Source: an uncultured Opitutaceae bacterium
GTDB lineage: Bacteria; Verrucomicrobiota; Verrucomicrobiia; Opitutales; Opitutaceae
Reading direction: 5' to 3'
DNA length: 64,000 nt
Assembly: GCA_937902925.1 (NCBI GenBank)
Contig: CALFNN010000103.1
Location: 186,001-250,000, forward strand
Under the pieces are notes generated by a model. It saw nothing but the letters and a program-made list of their open reading frames with translations, was not told the DNA's origin and searched no databases. A program made the translations under genes and the position numbers. This document shows, piece after piece, positions 49,789 through 62,925 of this stretch (its first letter is position 1; every line of letters starts with the position of its first letter).

Positions 49789-52056
49789 TCAGAAACGGTA
49801 GTCGGCGGTGAGAAGATAAGCGCGGGGGGCGCCGGGCATGAAGCGGGCGCCGTTGTTGTTGGCGGCCTGCACGAATTTCCGGTCGAAGAGGTTGTTCACG
49901 TTGAAGCGAAGGGAGACGTGCTTGGTGAGGGGATAGCTCACCATGGCGTTGAACAGCCAGTAGGCCGGGGAAGTGCGCGGGACGGACGGCGTGTTGTTGT
50001 CGCGGCGCGCGACCTCGGCGGAGTATTGGCCGCCGCCGCCGAGGAGGAGACCCGAATGGAAGTGGTAGCTCGTGTAGAGATTGCCAGACCACTTCGGGAT
50101 CAGCGGCAGGGCGGAGCCGGCGGTGTTGCCGCCGGAAGTCGTGCCGGAGTCGATCTCGCTGTCGAGGAACGAGACGTTGGCGAGGATCAGCCAGTGGTCG
50201 GTGATGCGGCGGGTGGCGCCGAGCTCGAAGCCTTTCACAGTCTGCTTGCCGGCGGGAACCGCGCCGAGCACTGGATCGGTGTAAACGGTCTTGTCGTTCA
50301 CCGTCTTGAAGATCGCGGCGGTGGTGGAGAGCCGGCCGTGGTTGAAGTCCCATTTCACGCCGAGCTCGAGGTTTGAGGTCTGCTGCGGATCGGTGTCGGG
50401 GTTGTTCTGGTTGCCCGTGGCGCTCGACAAGGTGAAGTCGGTGCCGGGCGGCGTGAGCGAAACGGCATAGGCGGCGTAAAGGCTGCCGGCGGCGACGGGC
50501 TTGAAGACAAGGCCGGTCTTCCAGCTGACGAGACCGTGCTGGGCATCGACGACGGACGGCACACCGGTGGCGGCGACACTGAGGTAGTGCGTGTGGTAGC
50601 GGTCGGCGCGGACGCTGGCGTCGGCCTGCCAGTGTTCGCTGAAGTGAACGGTGTCGAACGCGTAGAGCGCCGCGGTCTTCGTGACGACGTCGGTATAGGC
50701 GCCGCTGCGGAACGGCGTGAGCGCGGGCGCGGCCGTGGGATCGGAGTTCGTGATCAGGATCGCCGGCAACGTGACGCCGGTGAACGCGGGACTGGAGGCC
50801 GTCTCGCGCGAGAGTTCGAGTCCTCCGGTCAGGTTGTGCGTGAGCCGGCCGGTGGTGAAGTTGGCGGAGAGGTTGGTCTGGTTGGAAAGGATGCTCGTAT
50901 CGCGCTTGTTGGCCTGGCGACTGCGGATGAGCAGCCCGGTGGCGGGCGTGTAGGCGGTGCCATTCTGGCCGGGCGTGGTGACAGAAGCCTCGCGTTGATT
51001 TGCGCTGTAGCGGGTCTGGTTGGAGAGCTTCAGATCGGCGTTGAGGTCGTGTTCAAGGCGCGCGGTGGCGGAGTCGCTGTGCACTTGGTCGGAGTCGGCG
51101 GTGAAGCCGAAGAACGTGCTGCGCGGCACTGGCGGCACGGGAACGGGCGAGATGTAGCCGGGCAGTTGCGCGGTCGGCAGACCGTAATCGGGGAGGTTGT
51201 TTTGCTCGGTGTGTTGATACGCAAACGTCGCGCGCGTCGGAGTGCCGAGGCCGAGGGCGAGCGAGGGCGCGATGGCCCAGCTTTTGTTTTCGGCGTAGTC
51301 GCGGGCGACGGAATCGTTGTCCTGCCAGAGGGCATTGACGCGGACCGCGGTGCCCGTGACAGGGAAGTTTTCGAGCGGCTCGTCGATGTCGAGCGTGGTG
51401 CGGCGGCGACTGCCGGAAGTTTGTTCGTCGAGGCCATAGCTCACCTCGCCCGCGACCAGATTTTCCAGGCGGGGAACCTTGGTCGTGACGTTGACGTAGC
51501 CCGAGGCGCCGCCGCGACCGATATCGGCGCCGGCGGGGCCCTTTGCGACCTCGACCTGATCGAGATTGTAGACATCGCGACTGTAAGCGCCGACATCGCG
51601 CACGCCGTCGACGAAGATGTTGTTGGAGGTGTCGAATCCGCGCAGGTAGAACGCGTCGCCGGACGTGGCGGCGGCGCTGCCGCCCTCGCCGGCGGCGAAG
51701 GTGATGCCGGAAGTGTTGCGCAGGACATCGCTCAGCGTGGCGGCGCCCTGTTGCAGGAAAACTTCGCTCGGGATGACGGCGACGGTCTGCGGCAGGTCGC
51801 GGAGCGGCACGGCGAATTTGGGCGAGGACAGATGCTGGGTCTTCGTGTCCGCGATCACCACCGGATCGAGCACCGTGGGTTCGTCGGGCTTGGTGGCCGA
51901 AGGCGCGGTGGGCGTGGCGGCGACGTCGGCGAGCGCGTTGGGCGCGAGACTTTTCGCCACAAGCAGTGCGGTGAGGGCGGCGACGGATGATGGCGCGGAA
52001 GCGCGGTGCGGGCCGGTGGCGGCGATGGAATCGGAGGGACGGATGGTTGTTTTCAT
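49789..52056 (-). CDS. TonB-dependent siderophore receptor (Fiu/PiuA-like)
   Basis: A 755-residue outer-membrane receptor. A long, somewhat atypical signal/linker region (residues 1-60) precedes the plug domain (LRDLPQTVAVIPSEVFLQQG, LRNTSGITFAAGEGGS, FYLRGFDTSNNIFVDGVRD), then the 22-strand barrel ending NVNNLFDRKFVQAANNN and the terminal YLLTADYRF with aromatic C-terminus. This is the catecholate receptor group. With the hydroxylase and TPR genes downstream it forms an iron-uptake operon. No FecR/sigma pair or N-terminal signalling domain is present. Confidence 0.94.
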   Translation of the reverse strand: MKTTIRPSDSIAATGPHRASAPSSVAALTALLVAKSLAPNALADVAATPTAPSATKPDEPTVLDPVVIADTKTQHLSSPKFAVPLRDLPQTVAVIPSEVFLQQGAATLSDVLRNTSGITFAAGEGGSAAATSGDAFYLRGFDTSNNIFVDGVRDVGAYSRDVYNLDQVEVAKGPAGADIGRGGASGYVNVTTKVPRLENLVAGEVSYGLDEQTSGSRRRTTLDIDEPLENFPVTGTAVRVNALWQDNDSVARDYAENKSWAIAPSLALGLGTPTRATFAYQHTEQNNLPDYGLPTAQLPGYISPVPVPPVPRSTFFGFTADSDQVHSDSATARLEHDLNADLKLSNQTRYSANQREASVTTPGQNGTAYTPATGLLIRSRQANKRDTSILSNQTNLSANFTTGRLTHNLTGGLELSRETASSPAFTGVTLPAILITNSDPTAAPALTPFRSGAYTDVVTKTAALYAFDTVHFSEHWQADASVRADRYHTHYLSVAATGVPSVVDAQHGLVSWKTGLVFKPVAAGSLYAAYAVSLTPPGTDFTLSSATGNQNNPDTDPQQTSNLELGVKWDFNHGRLSTTAAIFKTVNDKTVYTDPVLGAVPAGKQTVKGFELGATRRITDHWLILANVSFLDSEIDSGTTSGGNTAGSALPLIPKWSGNLYTSYHFHSGLLLGGGGQYSAEVARRDNNTPSVPRTSPAYWLFNAMVSYPLTKHVSLRFNVNNLFDRKFVQAANNNGARFMPGAPRAYLLTADYRF

Positions 52057-52081
52057 GGGATGGGAAGTTTGAAAAAGAGCG

Positions 52082-52762
52082 TCAGGCGAGGCGGGAAAAG
52101 CCGCGGCGCCCCGGGCGCGCAGAGCGGCCGCGCGGATCGGGCGGGGAAGATCTCCCGGTTCGCCGCGCAGGGCGGAACTTCGGGGAGGCATCGGACTCGA
52201 TGGCTTTCAGGCCGGAGACGGTGAGTCGCATCAATCGCGCACTCGAAAAGGAAAGAAAAACACGGGCGATTCGCGGAACCTGACTGCGACGCGCGGAGGA
52301 ATCGCCGGGCACCGCAGTGCCGGCCGCGCGAAGTGGTTGCTCGATCCCGCCGGTCGGAGGGCCGACAGCATAGGGATGGGAGTGCTTGCGGGTGGAAAGG
52401 GCGGGCGCCGTGGGCGCGACGAAAGTCACGGGCGCTTCTGCGGCTGGATCGACCGGCGGTCGCATTTCGGCCGGAGCCAGAGCCGTGAAGTCAAGGGAGG
52501 CGAATCCGGTCGTCAGCCCACGCTCGAAGTCGTAAATTCCGCGCAAAATGTGCACCGGCGGCGCGAGTGCCTGCATGGCCGCGGGATAAAAGCGCAGGCG
52601 AAAAATCGGGGTGGAGACCACGACGGTTTGACTCGCGCCGATCGCCTGTGGGGCGGAGGGCTTGGCCGGCGCCGGTTCGAAGCGCGAGATTCCAGCCGCC
52701 GCGGCCAGCGCAATCAGCGTGGCGCATTGGGTCGAGCGCAGGGAACAGGGAGAGGCGAACAT
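52082..52762 (-). CDS. Hypothetical protein upstream of the TonB receptor
   Basis: A 226-residue ORF ending 25 bp before the receptor start. Residues 1-22 (SLRSTQCATLIALAAAAGIS) are hydrophobic and could be a signal or anchor, followed by a Pro/Ala-rich region with VVVSTPIFRLRFYPAAMQA and VHILRGIYDFERG. The last 70 residues are Arg/Pro-rich and may be non-coding read-through, so the true gene could be shorter or absent. I recognise no family. The Pro-rich secreted or anchored character is loosely like TonB-type proteins, which is only a guess. Confidence 0.4.
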   Translation of the reverse strand: MFASPCSLRSTQCATLIALAAAAGISRFEPAPAKPSAPQAIGASQTVVVSTPIFRLRFYPAAMQALAPPVHILRGIYDFERGLTTGFASLDFTALAPAEMRPPVDPAAEAPVTFVAPTAPALSTRKHSHPYAVGPPTGGIEQPLRAAGTAVPGDSSARRSQVPRIARVFLSFSSARLMRLTVSGLKAIESDASPKFRPARRTGRSSPPDPRGRSARPGRRGFSRLA

Positions 52763-53580: not shown

Positions 53581-54831
53581 CTACGATTTTTTCACGACGC
53601 CGCGCGCAGCGGTGTCGATGGTGCCGGGCGCATCCAGATCCTTCGCGCCCTTGGCGCCCAGTTCGGCGAGTTTGCGGGCGCCGGGGAGCAACATGCCCTC
53701 GAAGGAGCCGACCGCGGTGTTGTAGCCCTTGACGGCGGCGTCGAGGCCGCGGCCCACCTTGTCGAGGTTTTCGGCGAACGTGGAAACCCGGTCGTGGAGC
53801 TGCCGGCCGAGCGCGCTGATCTCGTCGGCGTTTTTCGAGACCGATTCCTGGCGCCAGCCGTAGGCGGCGGCTTTGAGCAACGCGATCAGCGTGGTGGGGG
53901 TGGCGAGGAGCACGCGGCGCGAGAGGGCGCGATCCATCAGCGTGGTGTCGGCCTGAAGCGCGGCGGTGAGAAAATGATCGCCGGGCAGGAAGAGCACGAC
54001 GAACTCGGGCGCGGGCTGGAACTGCTCCCAGTAGTTCTTGGCGCCGAGGGCATCGATGTGCCCGCGGACCTTCTGCGCGTGCTCGACGAGGCGCGCCGCG
54101 CGCAGGTTTTCGTCGGTAGTGTCGCCGGCGGCGCGGAAGGACTCGAGAGGCGTCTTCGCATCGACCACGATGCGCTGGCCGCCGGGCAGCCGGACCACGA
54201 GGTCGGCGCGAAGGCCGCCGGCAGATTCCTGTTCGGTGAAATCACAATAGGGGAGCATGTCGGCCATCTCGACCACGCGGCGGAGCTGCAACTCACCCCA
54301 GCTGCCGGCGTAGGTCGTCGAGCGCAGCGCGGTCGAGAGCCGCGCAGCTTCGCCCTGCAACTGAAGTTGCGCGGTGCTGAGCGCCTTGAGTTGTTCGCCG
54401 AGCGCGCCGTAGGCGGAGGCGCGGGCTTTCTCGATCTCGGCGATCTTGCCGTCCACTTTTTCGAGGGATTCGCGGAGCGGCTTCACGAGTGCGTCGATCG
54501 CCTGCTTGCGCTGCTCGAGATCGCCGGCCGACTGTTGGTGAAGTTGCGCGAAAGCCAGCCTGGCTTGCTCGAGAAAATCGGTGCGATTGACGCGGAGCGC
54601 GTCGGCGGAGAGCGCCTTGAATTCGTTCGTCAGGCGGTCGTGCGCGGTGCGCTCGGCGTCGAGCTGCGTGGCGAGCCGGGTGTTGAGCGTCGAGAGGCGG
54701 GCGGCCTCGGCGCGGAGCGAGGCGAGTTCGGCGGCGAGGCGGGCATTTTCCTCGAGGCGCGGGCGCAGGAAGAGCCAAACGAGGAGGCCGGCGAACGCGG
54801 CGGCGAGGACGGCGACGACGGTAAAAGACAC
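53581..54831 (-). CDS. rmuC: DNA recombination protein RmuC
   Basis: A 416-residue protein with an N-terminal membrane helix (VVAVLAAAFAGLLVWLFL), a coiled coil (residues about 25-170) and the RmuC nuclease-like domain: GSWGELQLRRVVEMADML, VVRLPGGQRIVVDAKTPL, then VVLFLPGDHFLTAALQ and ALLKAAAYGWRQE. RmuC limits inversion at short repeats and is related to PD-(D/E)XK nucleases. The GTG at 54831 places the membrane helix at the N-terminus; another in-frame GTG at 54924 would add 31 unlikely residues and reach toward the divergent operon. Confidence 0.9.
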   Translation of the reverse strand: MSFTVVAVLAAAFAGLLVWLFLRPRLEENARLAAELASLRAEAARLSTLNTRLATQLDAERTAHDRLTNEFKALSADALRVNRTDFLEQARLAFAQLHQQSAGDLEQRKQAIDALVKPLRESLEKVDGKIAEIEKARASAYGALGEQLKALSTAQLQLQGEAARLSTALRSTTYAGSWGELQLRRVVEMADMLPYCDFTEQESAGGLRADLVVRLPGGQRIVVDAKTPLESFRAAGDTTDENLRAARLVEHAQKVRGHIDALGAKNYWEQFQPAPEFVVLFLPGDHFLTAALQADTTLMDRALSRRVLLATPTTLIALLKAAAYGWRQESVSKNADEISALGRQLHDRVSTFAENLDKVGRGLDAAVKGYNTAVGSFEGMLLPGARKLAELGAKGAKDLDAPGTIDTAARGVVKKS

Positions 54832-54972
54832 GTAAAGATGGTCGGGGCGGAGCCGCCGCAAATCAATCCCGGATGCGTGCCTTGACAGGCCAGATTGCGC
54901 TCTGCAAACACGGAGGTGTTTCACGGCTTATCCCGGCAACCAACTTCAACTTCCGCTCAGCCGCCCGCCGCA

Positions 54973-56124
54973 ATGTTGACCGCCAAAATCCCCGCCGCGC
55001 CCGTCCCGAACGTCGCAGAGAAGCCGCCCGTGCTCGTCGTCGACGACGAATACGGCCCGCGCGAGTCGATCGCCTTCAGCCTGGCCGCGGAATTCGCGGT
55101 GGACACCGCGGAACGGGCGAAGGAGGCGCTTGCGAAGATCCAGGCGCGGCAATATTCGGCCGTCGTGCTCGACATTCGCATGCCGGAAATGGACGGCATC
55201 CGCGCGCTCGAGGAGATGCGCAAGATCGACCCGCACGTGTCGGTGATCATGCTGACGGGTTACGGCACGCTTCTCACGGCGCAGCAGGCGATGGTGGCGG
55301 GTGCGAACCAATACCTGCGCAAGCCGCCGGACATTCCGGAATTGATCGACGCGGTGCGGAAGCAGGCGCAGGCCACGCGGCTGCGGCGCGCGCAGGCGGG
55401 TCTGACCCGCGACGCGTTGGAGCTCAATGCCGCGCTCAAGCGCGAGATCGAGCACAACGAGCCGCAAATCTGGCAGGCGCGGGCGTCGGTCGAGCTGGTG
55501 CACGACCTCAACAACCCGCTGACCGTGGTGATCGGCTATGCGGCGCTGCTGGCGGAGGAGGCGCGAATGCTGGGGCAGCGGGATCCCGAGATGGCGAAGA
55601 AACTGCTCGAATACGCCGGGATGGTCGAGCGCGCGGCCGAGTATTGCCACCACCTGTCCGAGAACTGGCGGATGGCGGCGAAGCAGGCGCCCGAGTTCAC
55701 GAAGGTGGACCTGGTGCAGGTGGTGCACGAGGTGCGGCAGGTGATCTTTTTCGGCAACGTGGCCATCCAGTGCGCCGGTTTGCCGGAGGCGCCGGTGCGG
55801 GGCTCGAAGTTCGAGCTGATGCGCGTCCTGCAGAACCTGTTCAAGAATTCCCTCGAGGCCGGCGCCACGCGGCTGACCGTGACATTCGTCCGGCACGAGA
55901 TGCACATCGAAATGACGGCGGCCGACAACGGCGCGGGCATGGAGCCCGACCGCCTCAAACGCGCGCTGCATGGCGGCTTCAGCAGCAAGACGAACGGCAC
56001 CGGGCTGGGCCTGAGCATCTGCCGTCATCTCGCCGGAACGCACGGGGCAACGTTCGGCGTGGAGTCGTCACCGGGCCGTGGCACGACCGTGCGGCTGGTG
56101 TTTCCCGCGGCGCCGCAGGGATGA
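54973..56124 (+). CDS. Receiver-histidine kinase fusion protein, first gene of the five-gene operon
   Basis: A 383-residue cytoplasmic protein. A receiver domain (PVLVVDDEYGPRESIAF; phospho-Asp D67 in VVLDIRMPEMDG; Lys in LRKPPDIPEL) is followed by a short linker and a kinase domain with His near 177 (VELVHDLNNPLTVVIGYAAL). The ATPase has an N box (LQNLFKNSLEAG), G1 (AADNGAGME) and G2 (TNGTGLGLSIC). The receiver-first order suggests it takes phosphate from another kinase, probably the 7TM protein two genes on, and then signals further. The stop overlaps the ketoacyl-synthase start by 4 bp (ATGA). Confidence 0.9.
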   Translation: MLTAKIPAAPVPNVAEKPPVLVVDDEYGPRESIAFSLAAEFAVDTAERAKEALAKIQARQYSAVVLDIRMPEMDGIRALEEMRKIDPHVSVIMLTGYGTLLTAQQAMVAGANQYLRKPPDIPELIDAVRKQAQATRLRRAQAGLTRDALELNAALKREIEHNEPQIWQARASVELVHDLNNPLTVVIGYAALLAEEARMLGQRDPEMAKKLLEYAGMVERAAEYCHHLSENWRMAAKQAPEFTKVDLVQVVHEVRQVIFFGNVAIQCAGLPEAPVRGSKFELMRVLQNLFKNSLEAGATRLTVTFVRHEMHIEMTAADNGAGMEPDRLKRALHGGFSSKTNGTGLGLSICRHLAGTHGATFGVESSPGRGTTVRLVFPAAPQG

Positions 56125-57329
56125 AGCGGCGCCGGGTAAAAATCACGGGCGTCGGGCCGGTCACGCCGGCAGGAGTCGGACGGGAGGCATTCTGGCAGGG
56201 TATTCTCGAGCCGGTGAGTTACGTCCGGCGGTTTGAAAAGCTGGGCGAGGAATACGGGCCGTTGGTGGCCGCGCATATCGACCGGTTCAACGTGGCGAAA
56301 TTCGTGGACCGGGACCGGCTGCCGAAAGGCATTGGCCGGCACACGCAATTTGCCGTGGCCGGGGCCGTGCTGGCGCTGCAGGATTCGGGGCTCACGGAGA
56401 CGGAGCTGGAGACGCGCGATTGCCTGGTCGTGACCGGGTCCTCGCTGATGGATTTTGGCGGCATCTCGAACTCCACCTACGCCGTCTACTCCCGGGGGCC
56501 GCAGGCGGCGCTGCCGCGGACGATCTTCACGACGACCAACGCGAACGTCACGGAGGCCGTGAGCCGCGCCCTGAACATCGCCCCCCGGACGATGACGCTG
56601 CAGAATTCGTGTTGTTCCGGCCTCGATGCGATCGGTTATGCGGCGGGGGTGATTGCGCGGGGCGAGGCCGAGATCGCGATTTGCGGCGGCACGGAAGCGC
56701 CGCTGCACCGGTGCCCGCTGCTCGAGCTGCGGGCGGCGGGCTTGACCCCGCCGACCGTGGAGACGCCGGAGCGGCTCGCCCGTCCGTTCGATTTGTGGCG
56801 GACCACCGGCGTGGTCAGCGAGGGCGCGTGCATGTTCGTGCTCGAGGCGGAATCGAGTCCGCGGCCGGGTTATAGTTTTGTCTCGGGGTATGCGTTCGCG
56901 AACGACCCCGTGGGCGAGGTTTGCGGCGGCCTGGTGGAGGCGGCGAACCTCGCCCTGGCCGATTCGCGGATGAAAGCCGAGCGGGTGGATGCGATCAACG
57001 CGTGGGGGCCGGGCCACCGCCAGATCGACGCGGGCGAGTCGGACGCCATGCGCCGCGTGTTTGGCGGGATGCTCGGGGAGATTCCCGTGCTTTCGATCAA
57101 GGGCGCGATCGGCAGCGCGCTCGGCGCGGCACCGGCGATCCAGATCGGGGTGGCGGCGCTGGCGCAACGTCACGGGGTCGTGCCCGCCACGGTCAACTGG
57201 CAGTATCCCGACCCGGCCTGCGCGTTCAATGTCCACGGTCGTCCGCGCGCGGTTGACCACGCGGTCACTCTCGTCAATGCCCATGGTGTGGGCAACGTGA
57301 ACAGTTGCATGATTCTCGAACGATGCTGA
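56121..57329 (+). CDS. Beta-ketoacyl synthase homologue lacking both active-site histidines
   Basis: A 402-residue thiolase-fold protein of the FabF type. The nucleophile is kept: C164 in TLQNSCCSGLDAIGYAAG. The first active-site His (normally in HGTGT) is replaced: INAWGPGHRQIDAGE has W295 there. The second (normally KSxxGH) is also lost: SIKGAIGSALGAAP keeps K327 but has S332. The C-terminal glycine loop reads NAHGVGNVNSCMIL instead of GFGG-N. Such changes are found in non-elongating KS domains that hold or transfer acyl chains. No ACP, reductase or acyltransferase gene is near. It overlaps kinase genes at both ends (4 bp and 7 bp), so it probably works with them. Confidence 0.88.
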   Translation: MKRRRVKITGVGPVTPAGVGREAFWQGILEPVSYVRRFEKLGEEYGPLVAAHIDRFNVAKFVDRDRLPKGIGRHTQFAVAGAVLALQDSGLTETELETRDCLVVTGSSLMDFGGISNSTYAVYSRGPQAALPRTIFTTTNANVTEAVSRALNIAPRTMTLQNSCCSGLDAIGYAAGVIARGEAEIAICGGTEAPLHRCPLLELRAAGLTPPTVETPERLARPFDLWRTTGVVSEGACMFVLEAESSPRPGYSFVSGYAFANDPVGEVCGGLVEAANLALADSRMKAERVDAINAWGPGHRQIDAGESDAMRRVFGGMLGEIPVLSIKGAIGSALGAAPAIQIGVAALAQRHGVVPATVNWQYPDPACAFNVHGRPRAVDHAVTLVNAHGVGNVNSCMILERC

Positions 57330-59326
57330 TTTCGCTCGCCCTGTTGGCTTCCGTCGCGGTCGTCGTGGTTGGCGCCGCGATCTTGTGGTCGAATCCCAGC
57401 CGGCTGGTCAACCGGGTGGTCTTCACCTGCTCGGTCCACATCGCGTGCTGGCTCGGTTGCCTGCACCTCGCGACGACCTTCCCGCCGGGATCCGCGCAGG
57501 GCTTGTTCTGGGTGAAGATGGCGAGTGCCGTGGGGGGCTCCGTGCCCATGCATTTTTGGATCGTGAACGAAACCATCGCCGCGGGGATGCAGCGGGCGCG
57601 GCGCCGGTGGCTGGTGCAGTTTGGGTTCTGGCTCGCGATCTCGAGTGCCCTCACCGTGATCTGTTTCACGGAGCATTTCATCCCGTCGCACTCGACGGAC
57701 AAGAACCGCGTGTTCGGGTGGGGCTACTACGCCTACATCGTCGTCGATCTCAGTTTGTATGGGTATCTGATCGCGGATGCGTTGCGGACGATCCGGCGCC
57801 TGGAGGGCGGCCGGCGGATCGAGCTGCAAACGTGGCTGCTCGGCGGCTGCAGCATCGCCGCGACCGTGCTGGCGCTCATGGCCGTGAGCGCGGTCACGCA
57901 CGATTCGCGCTACATCCGCCTGCAGCCGCTGGTCATCCTGGTTTTCTTCACGGCGACGGCGGTCGCCATCACGACGTATCGCATCTTCGACGCGCGCCAG
58001 GTCCTCCTGGTGGCGGTCGAGAAAGTGCTGCTGGTTGGCTTGACGGCGGCGGTCGCGGTGACGGTGGAATGGGCGTTGCGCTCGGTGCTGCCCACGCCGT
58101 TCGACATTCTCACGACGACCGCGCTGGCCTTGTGGACCGCCTGGGCGCTGAGCAACTGGCTGGACCGGGTGTTTCGTTTTTACCCGCAGGCCACGGCGGC
58201 CCGGCAGGCGGCGTTCGCGGCGGCGCGGCGGGAAACCCGCGTGGAGGATCTCGAACGCGCTTTTCTGGCGGTGTTGAAGGGATGGGGCCAGAGCGATCAC
58301 GCCCTGGTGCTGTCGGGAGCGAAGGATTCGTTGCGCGGCAGCGGGGTCGAGCTGCCGGAAGACAGCGCCGTGGCCAAGGCGATGCGACAGCTGCGGTGGG
58401 CGACGCCGGAACGACTCGCACGCGAACGACCGACGCCCGTCCGCCAGGCGCTCGGCGAATTCCTCACCGCGCAGGGGCTGGGGGTGCTGGTGATCGGCGA
58501 AGGGCCCACGCTCACCGCCCTGATCGGCGTCGGTCACGCGGCGTCGCGGCGGCCGTTCACCTACCCGCAGGTCACGCAGCTGATGGAACTGGCTTCGATC
58601 ATCGAGAGCGCGCTGGAGCGGGCGCATTTCTCGGTGAAGGCGCAGCATGCCGAGCAGCTGGCGACCGTGGGACTGCTCGGGGCCAGCCTGGCGCACGAGA
58701 TCCGGAACCCGCTGGTCACGATCAAGACCTTCGTCCAGCTCCTGCCGCAGCACCATCAGGACGCGGCGTTTCGCGAGAAATTCTTCCGGTTGATCGGCGA
58801 TGAGGTGAACCGCATCGACCGGCTGACCGAGCAACTGCTCGATCTGGCGTCGCCCCGGGTTTACCTGGCGAACATGATCGAGCTCCATCCGGTGCTGCAG
58901 TCCAGCCTCGACCTCGTGGCCGCGAAGGCGACGGACAAGAACATCCAGTTCCTGACGGATTTCCGGGCGGCGCCGGACCGGGCGTTCACCGATCCGTCGG
59001 CGGCGAAGCAGGTGATGCTCAACCTTTGTTTCAACGCGATCCAGGCCATCGAGAGCCAGGCAAACGAACGGTGGGTGAAAATCTCGACGCGTAACACCTC
59101 CACCGGCCTCGAGATGGCCGTGGCGGACAGCGGGCCCGGCATCGCGGCGGAGATTCGCGCCCGGATCTTCCAGCCGTTCCAGACGACCAAGTCGTCGGGC
59201 TTTGGACTCGGGCTTGCGATTTGCAGCGATATCCTCGCGAATCTGAACGCTTCCATCTCGGTCGACCCCCCCGTCCCGGGAAGTGGAGCGACTTTTCGGG
59301 TGACCTTTCCATGCCAACCCTCGTAA
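57323..59326 (+). CDS. 7TM sensor histidine kinase
   Basis: A 667-residue membrane kinase. About seven or eight hydrophobic helices occupy residues 1-290 (for example LISLALLASVAVVVVGAAIL and VILVFFTATAVAITTYRIF), like the HisK 7TM sensor group. A GAF-like linker (residues about 310-430) precedes the kinase domain: H458 in ASLAHEIRNPLVTIKTFVQL, N box VMLNLCFNAIQAIE, G1 VADSGPGIA, G2 SSGFGLGLAIC. All catalytic motifs are intact. The ATG at 57323 overlaps the upstream gene by 7 bp. The ligand is unknown; a lipid or acyl compound linked to the KS-like protein is an appealing guess only. Confidence 0.92.
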   Translation: MLISLALLASVAVVVVGAAILWSNPSRLVNRVVFTCSVHIACWLGCLHLATTFPPGSAQGLFWVKMASAVGGSVPMHFWIVNETIAAGMQRARRRWLVQFGFWLAISSALTVICFTEHFIPSHSTDKNRVFGWGYYAYIVVDLSLYGYLIADALRTIRRLEGGRRIELQTWLLGGCSIAATVLALMAVSAVTHDSRYIRLQPLVILVFFTATAVAITTYRIFDARQVLLVAVEKVLLVGLTAAVAVTVEWALRSVLPTPFDILTTTALALWTAWALSNWLDRVFRFYPQATAARQAAFAAARRETRVEDLERAFLAVLKGWGQSDHALVLSGAKDSLRGSGVELPEDSAVAKAMRQLRWATPERLARERPTPVRQALGEFLTAQGLGVLVIGEGPTLTALIGVGHAASRRPFTYPQVTQLMELASIIESALERAHFSVKAQHAEQLATVGLLGASLAHEIRNPLVTIKTFVQLLPQHHQDAAFREKFFRLIGDEVNRIDRLTEQLLDLASPRVYLANMIELHPVLQSSLDLVAAKATDKNIQFLTDFRAAPDRAFTDPSAAKQVMLNLCFNAIQAIESQANERWVKISTRNTSTGLEMAVADSGPGIAAEIRARIFQPFQTTKSSGFGLGLAICSDILANLNASISVDPPVPGSGATFRVTFPCQPS

Positions 59327-61092
59327 TCCTCGCGACGACCGACACTGCGCTGGCGGAAGCGTGGGAACGCCAGCTGCCGGCAGGCCGGATGGGGCTGCGA
59401 CTGGCGGCCCAGACTTTTCCGGGCGGGGGCACGGCGCCGGGGTTTGCCGCGGTGGTCGTGCTGGATGCGACCGCCGAGGCTTCGCTGCCGCCTTCGCTCG
59501 CGCGCTGCCCGACGATCTACGTGGGCGAGCCCCGCAGCCTGCCGTTCGAGCAGGCGCGGATGGCGGGGCGGGCAAAAATTTACCTCTCCTACGAGGAAAG
59601 CACATCGCGGTTGCGCGAGCTGTTGCCGCTCGTCGAGGAAGTCGCGGAAAAACAGTCGCTGATCGAGATGTTCGCGGAAAAAAACCGCCGGGCCGAGCCG
59701 GTGCGCGCGACCTCCCGCCCGGCGCCCACGGATTCCGCCGAGCTGTGGGATTTCCTGGAAGGCGCGGTGGAGAACCTCGACACCCGCGACCGGCTCATCG
59801 CGGAGTTCCGGCGGGCGTCGCGACATCTCCTGCGCGCCTCGCACACCGTTTTTTTCCTGCGTGAGGCCGATGGGTTCCGGGCGGACCGGGGCACTTCGTT
59901 TTTTGCCATCGACGATCCGCTGGTGGATTTTTTCGAGCATCACCCGGCGGTGATCGACGGCACGAACTGGGACGGCCCGGCGGACCCGGTGGCCGAGCTC
60001 GCGGTGCGCAACCGCCTCGCGCTCTGGGGGGCGCGCCTGCTGGTGCCGGTGCACGATAACGGGCGGCTGCTCGGGCTCATCGCGCTCGGGGTGCGGGACG
60101 ACGGCCAGCCTTACGATGAGAGCGACCGGGCACGCGCGGTGTTTTTTGCGCGGTTGTTGCGTCATTTTCTGGCGAAGGCGGCCCATTTCAGCCGGCTGAA
60201 CCATCTCGCCGACCAGGCCAGCCTCGGGGCGAAATACCTGCCGGGCACGCTGGTGCTCGGGGCCGACGAGAACGCGCCGCGCAATGTGCCGCTCGTCGTG
60301 CGCGACATCATCGGCCAGGCGCGCCGGACGCGCGAAGTTTCGCGGGTGATGCCCAGCGAGGGCCAGCCGTTTCGCGCCAGCGCGGGGATCGTGGCGGAGA
60401 CCGGCGGCGTGTGGGCGTGCTGGCAGGAGGCGAGCGCGGAAGTGCACGACGCCGCGGCCCGCCAGCGGGCGGGACGGCGCGGGGTGTTGCGCGAACTGGG
60501 CCTCACGTTGAGCCACGAGCTGGGCAACGCGCTCGTGTCGCTCGCGACCTTCCGCTTCAGCACGCCGGAGCAGCCGCTGCCGGCAGCGATCATCGAGACG
60601 GTCAAGAGCGACGTCGTCAAACTAGAGGCGCTCAACGACCATCTCGCGCTGATGCAGACGCTGCACGAGGCGGAAAGCGAACTCGTCGACATGCGCGAGC
60701 TGGCGCACTCGATCGGACATTCGCTCGGGTTGCGGGTCGAGGTCGGTCCCGACGCCGTGGTGCTGTCGGCGAACAAGAAGCTGCTCGATTTTGCCGTGCG
60801 TTCCCTGATCCGCACGGTCACGGAGAACCGGGGCGAACTCGGCGCGCGCGAGCTGACGTTGCAGGTGCGCTCGACCGGCGTCGGCGCGGAACTCACGGCG
60901 CTGCTGTCGCTGAAAGGAAAAACGCTCGAGCTCGAGGGCATCCTGCCGGAGCCGTCCGAGGGCGAGGTGCCGAACCTCGGGCGCCTCGGCGTGTTCCTGG
61001 CGAAGGAAATCCTCCGGCTTCACCATGGCGAAATCCACGCGGGACCGGGCCTGGAGGGGACCGAGATCCTGATTTCGGTGCGGCGGTTGTGA
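59311..61092 (+). CDS. GAF-domain histidine kinase-like protein with degenerate ATPase domain
   Basis: A 593-residue cytoplasmic protein. Residues 1-125 resemble a receiver fold (LVILATTDTALAEAWERQL; VVVLDATAEASLPPS) with an Asp that may not be functional. A GAF domain follows (about 180-330, ALWGARLLVPVHDNGRLLGL), and a dimerisation domain has His near 402 (LTLSHELGNALVSLATF). The ATPase domain is poor: the N box is replaced by RSLIRTVTENRGEL, and no DxGxG G1 box is seen (LSLKGKTLELEG). It may dimerise with, or be phosphorylated by, the partner kinases rather than act alone. It overlaps the upstream gene by 16 bp. Confidence 0.8.
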   Translation: MPTLVILATTDTALAEAWERQLPAGRMGLRLAAQTFPGGGTAPGFAAVVVLDATAEASLPPSLARCPTIYVGEPRSLPFEQARMAGRAKIYLSYEESTSRLRELLPLVEEVAEKQSLIEMFAEKNRRAEPVRATSRPAPTDSAELWDFLEGAVENLDTRDRLIAEFRRASRHLLRASHTVFFLREADGFRADRGTSFFAIDDPLVDFFEHHPAVIDGTNWDGPADPVAELAVRNRLALWGARLLVPVHDNGRLLGLIALGVRDDGQPYDESDRARAVFFARLLRHFLAKAAHFSRLNHLADQASLGAKYLPGTLVLGADENAPRNVPLVVRDIIGQARRTREVSRVMPSEGQPFRASAGIVAETGGVWACWQEASAEVHDAAARQRAGRRGVLRELGLTLSHELGNALVSLATFRFSTPEQPLPAAIIETVKSDVVKLEALNDHLALMQTLHEAESELVDMRELAHSIGHSLGLRVEVGPDAVVLSANKKLLDFAVRSLIRTVTENRGELGARELTLQVRSTGVGAELTALLSLKGKTLELEGILPEPSEGEVPNLGRLGVFLAKEILRLHHGEIHAGPGLEGTEILISVRRL

Positions 61093-61937
61093 GCCCCGTG
61101 CGCAATTTTGCCGAGATGGTGGCGGCGTGGGCCGGCCGCGAGCCGACGATGGAGGCCCTGGTGCTGATTGGGTCGCAAACCCGCGAGGCGGACGATGCGG
61201 TGTGGCGCGCGGACGCGCAATCCGACTGGGATTTTCAAATCGTTACCTCGCGGCCCGAGATGTTTTTCGATTCCGCGTGGACGCGCGGATTGGAGGGCGG
61301 CACGCTGCGCGCCTACGCGCTGCGGGAGGCGCGACTCGGCGATGTCCCGAAAATCAATGCGGTCTTCGCGGAGGGCGAGGCGGATTTTGTCATCCTGCCG
61401 GCGGGGCGCCTGGGACAATTGCGGCAGGCGACCGAGGGAGGTCAGCACCGGAGCGCGGGTGAAGTCCGGCGCCAGTTGCAGAGCCTCGCGATCGTGATCC
61501 GGCCCGGCTGGCGTTTCCTCCACGGCGCGGAGGCCTGGGAACCATTTTATCGTCAGATCGTGGCGGAGGTGCCCGATCCGAGGCTCGACGATGCGGCGGC
61601 GCGCGCGCTGGCCGACGGTTTCGTCTGCGACTGGGTCTGGGTGAGGCGCAAGCTCGAGCGCGGCGAGCTGACGGCCGCCCAGCGCGTGCTCCATCGCGAA
61701 CTGGCCGAGACGAATTTCCGACTGCTGCACGAACTCAAGCTGCGGCGCGGCGAGCGCAGTTTTCCGGAAGCCCGGCGGATCGAGCGGGTGGCGGCGGCCG
61801 CGGACCTGGCGGCGGTGACCGTGGACGCCACGTGCGCGCCGGCCGCCCTCCACGCGGCCGCGGCGAAAAGTGCGGCGACCTGCCGCGAGCTGATGCGCGG
61901 GCTCGTCGGCGGCGCGTGGCGCTGGCCGGACGTTTAG
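61089..61937 (+). CDS. Aminoglycoside 6-adenylyltransferase-like nucleotidyltransferase
   Basis: A 282-residue protein of the AadE/ANT(6) type. The nucleotidyltransferase motif is LVLIGSQTREADDAVWRADA followed by QSDWDFQIVT, with GS and D-x-D intact. Further on, DFVILPAGRLGQL and ETNFRLLHELKLRRGE are typical of the helical half. Classical members adenylylate streptomycin; chromosomal members often have unknown substrates. The GTG at 61089 makes a GTGA overlap with the upstream gene, and it is the last gene of the operon. A drug-resistance role is unlikely from this context. Confidence 0.85.
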   Translation: MSPVRNFAEMVAAWAGREPTMEALVLIGSQTREADDAVWRADAQSDWDFQIVTSRPEMFFDSAWTRGLEGGTLRAYALREARLGDVPKINAVFAEGEADFVILPAGRLGQLRQATEGGQHRSAGEVRRQLQSLAIVIRPGWRFLHGAEAWEPFYRQIVAEVPDPRLDDAAARALADGFVCDWVWVRRKLERGELTAAQRVLHRELAETNFRLLHELKLRRGERSFPEARRIERVAAAADLAAVTVDATCAPAALHAAAAKSAATCRELMRGLVGGAWRWPDV

Positions 61938-61944
61938 TCCTGGT

Positions 61945-62925
61945 TCACGCCTGGGCCGTGAAGAGCTCGGCGATGACATCCTCGAGCGGGATGTCCTCGA
62001 TCGTGATGTCGGCGACGGGGCCGGTGTGGAGAATCTCCTGCGAGACGGCGACGACGTTCTCCCCCGGCACGCAGAGGGTGAACTTGCCGTCCTCGGCGCG
62101 CTTGGTCTCGCCGTGGCGCGACTGCCACGAGTCGGGAAACGCGGCGCCGGGCCCGGGCAGGAAGGTGATGATCTTCTTGCGCGCGCCGCCCGCGTTTTCG
62201 AGGCGGTCGAGCGCGCCGTCGTAGATTTTCACGCCCTTGTGAATCACGATGACGCGTTCGCAGAGTTCCTTGATGTCGGCCATATAGTGGCTGGTGAGGA
62301 GGATCGTGACGCGGTGGCGGCGGTTGTATTCGCGGAGGAACTGGCGCACGGCGCGCTGCGAGACGACGTCGAGGCCGATGGTCGGCTCGTCGAGAAAGAG
62401 GACGCGCGGCCGGTGGAGCAGGGCGGCGATGAGCTCCATCTTCATCCGCTCGCCGAGCGAGAGCTCGCGCACCATCACGTTGAGCTTGGCGCGGACATCG
62501 AGCAGGTCGACGAGTTCATCGAGGGTCGCCTGGAACTGGTCGGGCGGAATGCCGTAGATGGCGCGGAAGAGGTTGAACGATTCGATCGCCGGGAGGTCCC
62601 ACCAGAGTTGGTTTTTCTGGCCGAGCACGAGCGCGAAAAGGCGGCGATAGGCATTTTCGCGCTTGGTGGGATCGTAACCGGCAACGCGCGCGGTGCCGCT
62701 GGTCGGGTAAATGAGGCCCGAGAGCATCTTGAGGGTGGTGGTCTTGCCCGCGCCGTTGGGCCCGAGGAAGCCGACGAACCCGCCCTCGGCGATCGTGAAC
62801 GACACGTCGCGGGCCGCGGCGATTTCCTCGAACTCGCGATGGAAGATGCCCCTCACGCCACCCCAGAAGCCCGGGCGCTTCTTGTAGGTGCGGAACACGC
62901 GCGTGAGGTGCGAGACTTCGATCAT
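61945..62925 (-). CDS. ABC-2 type exporter ATP-binding protein
   Basis: A 326-residue ATPase. Walker A GPNGAGKT is near residues 55-62, the Q loop reads VLGQKNQLWW, the signature is LSLGERMKMELI, and Walker B is VLFLDEPTIGLDVVSQ. An insert before Walker A (KKRPGFWGGVRGIFHREFEEI) and a C-terminal domain (residues about 235-326) are typical of the group that pairs with two ABC-2 (DUF990-type) permeases. No permease gene is adjacent: downstream lies the convergent nucleotidyltransferase gene 7 bp away, and upstream a methyltransferase. The ATG at 62925 has the usual pyrimidine leader. Confidence 0.92.
   Translation of the reverse strand: MIEVSHLTRVFRTYKKRPGFWGGVRGIFHREFEEIAAARDVSFTIAEGGFVGFLGPNGAGKTTTLKMLSGLIYPTSGTARVAGYDPTKRENAYRRLFALVLGQKNQLWWDLPAIESFNLFRAIYGIPPDQFQATLDELVDLLDVRAKLNVMVRELSLGERMKMELIAALLHRPRVLFLDEPTIGLDVVSQRAVRQFLREYNRRHRVTILLTSHYMADIKELCERVIVIHKGVKIYDGALDRLENAGGARKKIITFLPGPGAAFPDSWQSRHGETKRAEDGKFTLCVPGENVVAVSQEILHTGPVADITIEDIPLEDVIAELFTAQA

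Follow-up and report, generated by a model that had tools for sequence, protein, structure and literature searches.

The window is a 64,000-nucleotide stretch of an uncultured Opitutaceae genome (C103:186001-250000 within a 6.0 Mb draft genome). It contains five consecutive open reading frames on the forward strand, listed together with their two flanking genes in Table 1. Neighbouring frames overlap by 4, 7, 16 and 4 bp, which confirms the layout of five overlapping genes proposed in the initial annotation, in both place and strand. A Pfam scan found no DNA-binding response regulator among the five products. The RmuC-like flanking gene is present at many, not all, loci of the window's family and the ABC-transporter ATPase-like gene is conserved across it; neither is part of the system described here. 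Elsewhere in the window, an ORF of 800 aa on the reverse strand (49789-52191) has the look of a TonB-dependent receptor.

Table 1. Genes of the operon and its flanks, with positions in the window
Gene and product	Position	Strand	Basis of assignment
RRHK, REC-HisKA-HATPase protein, 383 aa	54973-56124	+	Pfam REC 1.2e-26, HATPase 2.5e-21
KS, ketosynthase-like, 402 aa	56121-57329	+	Pfam ketoacyl-synt N+C, E 1.8e-25 / 2.9e-14
HK7TM, membrane sensor kinase, 667 aa	57323-59326	+	Pfam HisKA_7TM (weak), HisKA, HATPase
GAFHK, degenerate kinase, 593 aa	59311-61092	+	Pfam GAF (weak); motif comparison; AlphaFold
NT, predicted nucleotidyltransferase, 282 aa, GTG start	61089-61937	+	AlphaFold model and Foldseek
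RmuC-like flanking gene	53581-54924	-	Named by look of sequence
ABC-transporter ATPase-like flanking gene	61945-62925	-	Named by look of sequence

Conservation of the operon was followed within the window's family and beyond it, in genomes that are mostly MAGs and with a limited number of candidates scored per genome. With the single KS protein as query, 11 of 36 other family genomes yielded orthologues, their identity lying at 45-64% before a drop to about 30%. In a profile search through 252 family genomes, an orthologue scoring above 300 bits was detected in 83, and the next match reached 263 bits. The set of family loci comprises 32, including the window's own (L039-L050, L115-L134), and in these the KS is accompanied by kinases in every case where the contig extends far enough, and mostly by NT as well. 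Because the ORFs are conserved in the 31 further loci, and most junctions, where measured, are short gaps or overlaps, the five-ORF arrangement is not a product of chance. In one genus (L048, L116, L117, L129) RRHK and NT have changed position or orientation around an intact KS-HK7TM-GAFHK core.

Across the same 252 genomes, KS was found in 83, GAFHK in 93 and both in 77; KS and NT co-occur in 76, all three genes in 75, and none of the three in 149. Two genomes, G004 (one contig; L237) and G033 (L238), carry RRHK-HK7TM-GAFHK and lack both KS and NT, so the kinases do not strictly depend on the KS, which counts against a tight system. Many other mismatches correspond to genes at contig ends or to broken genes. 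Of 17 loci with NT, nearly all of them in genomes where no KS was detected, the majority continue from NT through kinases to the contig end; at L222 and L223 (G208 and G030) no kinase or KS was found beside NT. In G066 (L121), G062 and G058 the KS match is interrupted by a stop codon, which may reflect a pseudogene or an error of assembly. In addition, a second HK7TM-like kinase scoring 315-578 bits is located next to the operon at L047:1984-4083, L134:2681-4726, L131:5490-7556, L133:12113-14194 and L122:13400-15496.

Outside the family, the association of KS with kinases extends over the phylum. In 20 loci of other families, picked by KS score, the membrane kinase adjoins the KS without exception, and most of these loci also have a third kinase and a REC-kinase. 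Scanning of named genomes yielded 153 confirmed KS relatives, and in the best 80 of the 153 loci the membrane kinase (HKa) follows the KS in 78, a third kinase (HKb) is present in 68, a REC-kinase nearby in 69, the gene of a FadL fatty-acid porin in 35 and an NtrC-type sigma54 regulator in 25; these loci and the 20 above are partly the same records, and some gene absences are due to contig ends. Linkage of the KS to membrane kinase, third kinase and REC-kinase is therefore a feature of most Verrucomicrobiota loci sampled. Conserved linkage to all four partners had been put forward as support for a system; it holds for the three kinases and fails for NT, which none of the 80 named loci contains and which was detected solely in the window's family. 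The opposite outcome, that homologues of the KS would reside mostly in fatty-acid or polyketide loci with kinase neighbours in this genome alone, is contradicted by the phylum-wide linkage. Region-wide synteny as a cause was rejected as well, since the genes flanking the operon in the family are missing from the named loci (RmuC 0/80, ABC 1/80).

The relatives usually retain the KS and the membrane kinase along with a third kinase that is intact, in the scanned examples with HisKA, HATPase and PAS domains. At L197, from the cultured Pontiella sulfatireligans, KS, kinases and FadL are present together with a sigma54 regulator located some kilobases downstream. The version in the window's family is one without FadL and regulator, with a degenerate third kinase and with NT gained. 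Lineages represented among the named loci are mostly of Verrucomicrobiota; of the KS relatives at L186, L199 and L208, two come from Omnitrophota MAGs and one from a MAG labelled Armatimonadetes. At L186 the KS is joined by HKa, HKb and a sigma54 regulator.

The KS belongs to the FabF superfamily and is homologous to FabF over its whole length, although its score with the NCBIfam fabF model (200.7 bits) is under the cut-off of 493.75. In a maximum-likelihood tree, Verrucomicrobiota KS sequences form one group (support 96/98), separate from FabF and polyketide synthases, and those from Omnitrophota and Armatimonadetes are placed outside it; two rows with long branches leave the deep order of this tree unsure. 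In the window's genome, the segment G000:C37:41298-92863 harbours five KS matches in very long frames, probably type I polyketide synthase genes.

Residues of the active site were compared in 131 KS sequences (32 from the family, 20 from the phylum and 79 from named loci, the last two sets partly overlapping). The KS of the window keeps the cysteine as Cys164, has Trp295 and Ser332 at the positions of the two catalytic histidines, and carries a new residue, His388, at the position of FabF Phe398. The active cysteine is invariant (131/131), and the equivalent of the second catalytic histidine, FabF His340, is absent from every sequence, mostly replaced by Asn. At the position of the first, FabF His303, Trp is found in 31 of the 32 family sequences and His or Tyr in most sequences outside the family, with Tyr in 34 of the 79 from named loci. 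An equivalent of Glu309 is present in all 131, that of Asp265 in 122, and that of Lys335 wherever it could be aligned, while His or Arg replaces Phe398 and the GFGG loop is changed to HG. Similarity to FabF (KAS II) in whole-length homology, the cysteine and the Lys335, Glu309 and mostly Asp265 equivalents is accompanied by loss of its Cys-His-His triad. Many relatives carry Cys-His-Asn, the catalytic set of KAS III, and by these residues could be active enzymes.

In FabF, the acyl chain is taken by Cys163, and His303 and His340 contact the acyl carbonyl (PMC7138838); a ketosynthase in which one catalytic histidine is replaced (Cys-Asn-His) is a non-elongating transacylase (PMC8456789). Considering these roles along with the residue changes, chain elongation by the KS of the window is unlikely, and formation of a thioester on it is plausible. 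Non-elongating KS0 domains of trans-AT polyketide synthases likewise keep the cysteine and have a replaced catalytic histidine (PMC8456789); the window protein differs from them in being free-standing and associated with kinases, with no ACP gene in the operon.

Both RRHK and HK7TM carry the H, N, G1 and G2 motifs of active histidine kinases. In RRHK, the receiver Asp67 and the H-box His177 were identified, and the REC Asp and Lys, H-box His, N-box Asn and G1 Asp are each conserved in 31 of 31 family sequences, the invariant Asp67 qualifying the domain as a receiver with a phospho-accepting aspartate. In HK7TM the corresponding histidine is His458, and its H, N, G1 and G2 residues are conserved in 31/31; its HisKA_7TM match is weak (27.1 bits, cut-off 28.6).

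The fourth product, GAFHK, gave no HisKA or HATPase match in the Pfam scan and a weak GAF match (20.3 bits, cut-off 22.4). It is composed of a receiver-like N-terminal domain (Asp52), a GAF-like domain, DHp-like helices with His402, and a relic of an ATP site without N, G1 and G2 boxes. In the family (n = 27) the phospho-accepting histidine is present in all sequences, the N-box Asn in none, and G1 is deleted in all; in homologues from the phylum (n = 84) the corresponding counts of retained residues are 84, 82 and 78. An AlphaFold model (pLDDT 84.6, pTM 0.45) has histidine-kinase folds as matches among solved structures, with the arrangement of domains uncertain. The earlier label of a GAF kinase-like protein was thus right as to the relation with kinases and has to be amended as to the ATP site, which is gone. 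A phospho-accepting histidine on kinase-like helices and a dead ATP site are the hallmarks of the phosphotransferases Spo0B and ChpT. By its conserved histidine, kinase-like helix region and lost ATP-binding motifs, GAFHK may be of this type, unlike them adding receiver-like and GAF-like domains.

For NT, neither Pfam nor a sequence search of the PDB returned a match. Its AlphaFold model (pLDDT 94) aligns in Foldseek with LinB (TM 0.67-0.71) and ANT(6)-Ib (TM 0.62), and the predicted fold is that of a LinB/ANT(6)-type nucleotidyltransferase, in agreement with the initial annotation. Motif residues include Gly28-Ser29, Asp46, Asp48 and Asp99, and the three aspartates, invariant in 29 sequences, are by analogy with LinB and ANT(6) the putative catalytic carboxylates. 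Dissimilar to these enzymes are the low identity in structure alignments (13-16%), the lack of a Pfam match and the position in an operon with kinases.

In scanned relatives, the regulator has the architecture REC-Sigma54-HTH_8, and FadL belongs to the Toluene_X family (E <1e-56). FadL adjoins the REC-kinase in 13 of the 20 phylum loci, and NtrC and FadL occur together in 19 of the 25 regulator-bearing loci by a stricter FadL count. Neither is present in 42 of the 80 named loci, some of them cut by contig ends, and FadL is missing from all 32 family loci; control of fatty-acid functions is therefore not universal in these systems. The window's genome contains one FadL-family gene elsewhere, along with several sigma54 activators. 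Promoters were scored over 200 bases upstream of FadL with a sigma54 consensus having a GG-N10-GC core and a threshold. A site was found in 22 of 32 cases, against an expectation of 0.7 based on random 210-base segments drawn from these loci; the count of sites, like any p value resting on it, is inflated by kinship of the genomes. On the opposite (KS) strand of the same intergenic regions there was no excess (4 found, 3.9 expected). For the family, a sigma54 promoter ahead of RRHK was rejected (0 found, 1.8 expected).

We propose that the operon represents a conserved signalling system in the form it takes in the window's family, and that in this system a KS sensing acyl state feeds a phosphorelay, a reading that we regard as evenly poised. 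Acyl-ACP or acyl-CoA would donate acyl groups to Cys164 of the KS, giving a thioester that the KS cannot elongate, and the adjoining membrane kinase would read the acyl-loaded or empty state of the KS. Phosphate would then pass between three sites: the membrane kinase, the REC-kinase's receiver and, in the degenerate third kinase GAFHK, His402, which would make GAFHK a phosphotransfer protein. In the relatives, the relay would end at the NtrC-type regulator and switch on FadL; in the window's family, where this output is missing, NT may be its substitute. We infer the steps from KS to kinase and from kinase to kinase, as well as the role of NT. An acyl or thioester ligand is indirectly supported by the invariant cysteine and by the linked FadL porin of the relatives. 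The sensor interpretation offered at first is accordingly sustained in part, by the conserved kinase linkage, and weakened by the restriction of NT linkage to the window's family.

More tentatively, and at somewhat less than even probability, the KS may derive from a ketosynthase that came to sense the pool of acyl thioesters, in which case histidine kinases would read its covalent acylation state as the signal. We know of no earlier description of fatty-acid status coupled to two-component signalling through the acyl state of a KS, and an open-access literature search found no account of the KS-kinase arrangement. If true, a KS-fold protein coupled to kinases would be a new link between lipid metabolism and signalling, present in a large part of Verrucomicrobiota. 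The altered residues of the KS and the sigma54 promoter of FadL make the proposal testable, and the family's degenerate kinase and added NT show how rewiring of such a relay may come about.

The main rival, which we think unlikely yet worth serious weight, is that the KS is an enzyme making a lipid signal that the adjacent membrane kinase detects, in the manner of CqsA/CqsS, with FadL moving the signal across the outer membrane. A synthase gene lies beside a membrane kinase in CqsA/CqsS and Lqs (PMC3285556, PMC3376566), photopyrone quorum signals are reported to be made by a ketosynthase (PMC4578411), and in rhizobia FadL has been linked to long-chain AHLs outside the cell (PMC9938287). The Cys-His-Asn set of many relatives would also suit such an enzyme. 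However, a condensing reaction shared by all is improbable with Trp at the first histidine position throughout nearly all the family and Tyr in many named loci, and no other biosynthetic gene of such kind was recognised by eye in L095, L097, L098 and L099.

Less probable again is that the KS works as a transacylase that acylates a kinase or NT, or as a scaffold that only holds the kinases together. An invariant cysteine without an intact Cys-His-His set agrees with this, and a KS of such type does act as a transacylase (PMC8456789), but a pure scaffold leaves the conservation of the cysteine and of the Asp265 equivalent unexplained. That an ordinary biosynthetic KS happens to lie among kinase genes is highly improbable: its membership in the FabF superfamily would allow this, and both the linkage in nearly all phylum loci sampled and the separate position of the KS group in the tree reject it.

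AtoS-AtoC is a sigma54 two-component system of acetoacetate and short-chain fatty-acid metabolism, and in the one relative tested (L098) the regulator and membrane kinase score best with the AtoC and AtoS models of NCBIfam. The scores are below cut-offs (455 against 714 for AtoC, 327.9 against 646 bits for AtoS), and membership was rejected; the relatives have KS, kinases and FadL in addition, and the window operon has no sigma54 regulator. Residues 343-663 of HK7TM match the model of PrsK, and the regulator of relatives that of PrsR, of the PEP-CTERM system PrsK/PrsR; membership was rejected here too, with 88.6 against 300 bits for HK7TM and 366.2 against 502.6 bits for the L098 regulator. 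CqsA/CqsS and LqsA/LqsS share with the window operon the gene of an acyl-handling enzyme beside that of a membrane kinase, CqsA being a PLP enzyme and the window protein a KS.

Finally, most of 37 loci without FadL (L138-L204) share a conserved CGGCACG-N5-TAGCT motif, set at a near-fixed distance upstream of RRHK. In these related genomes, 34 of the 37 loci pass the sigma54 score, compared with 3.6 expected by shuffling, and the loci with the motif are mostly from Chthoniobacterales and Spartobacteria.
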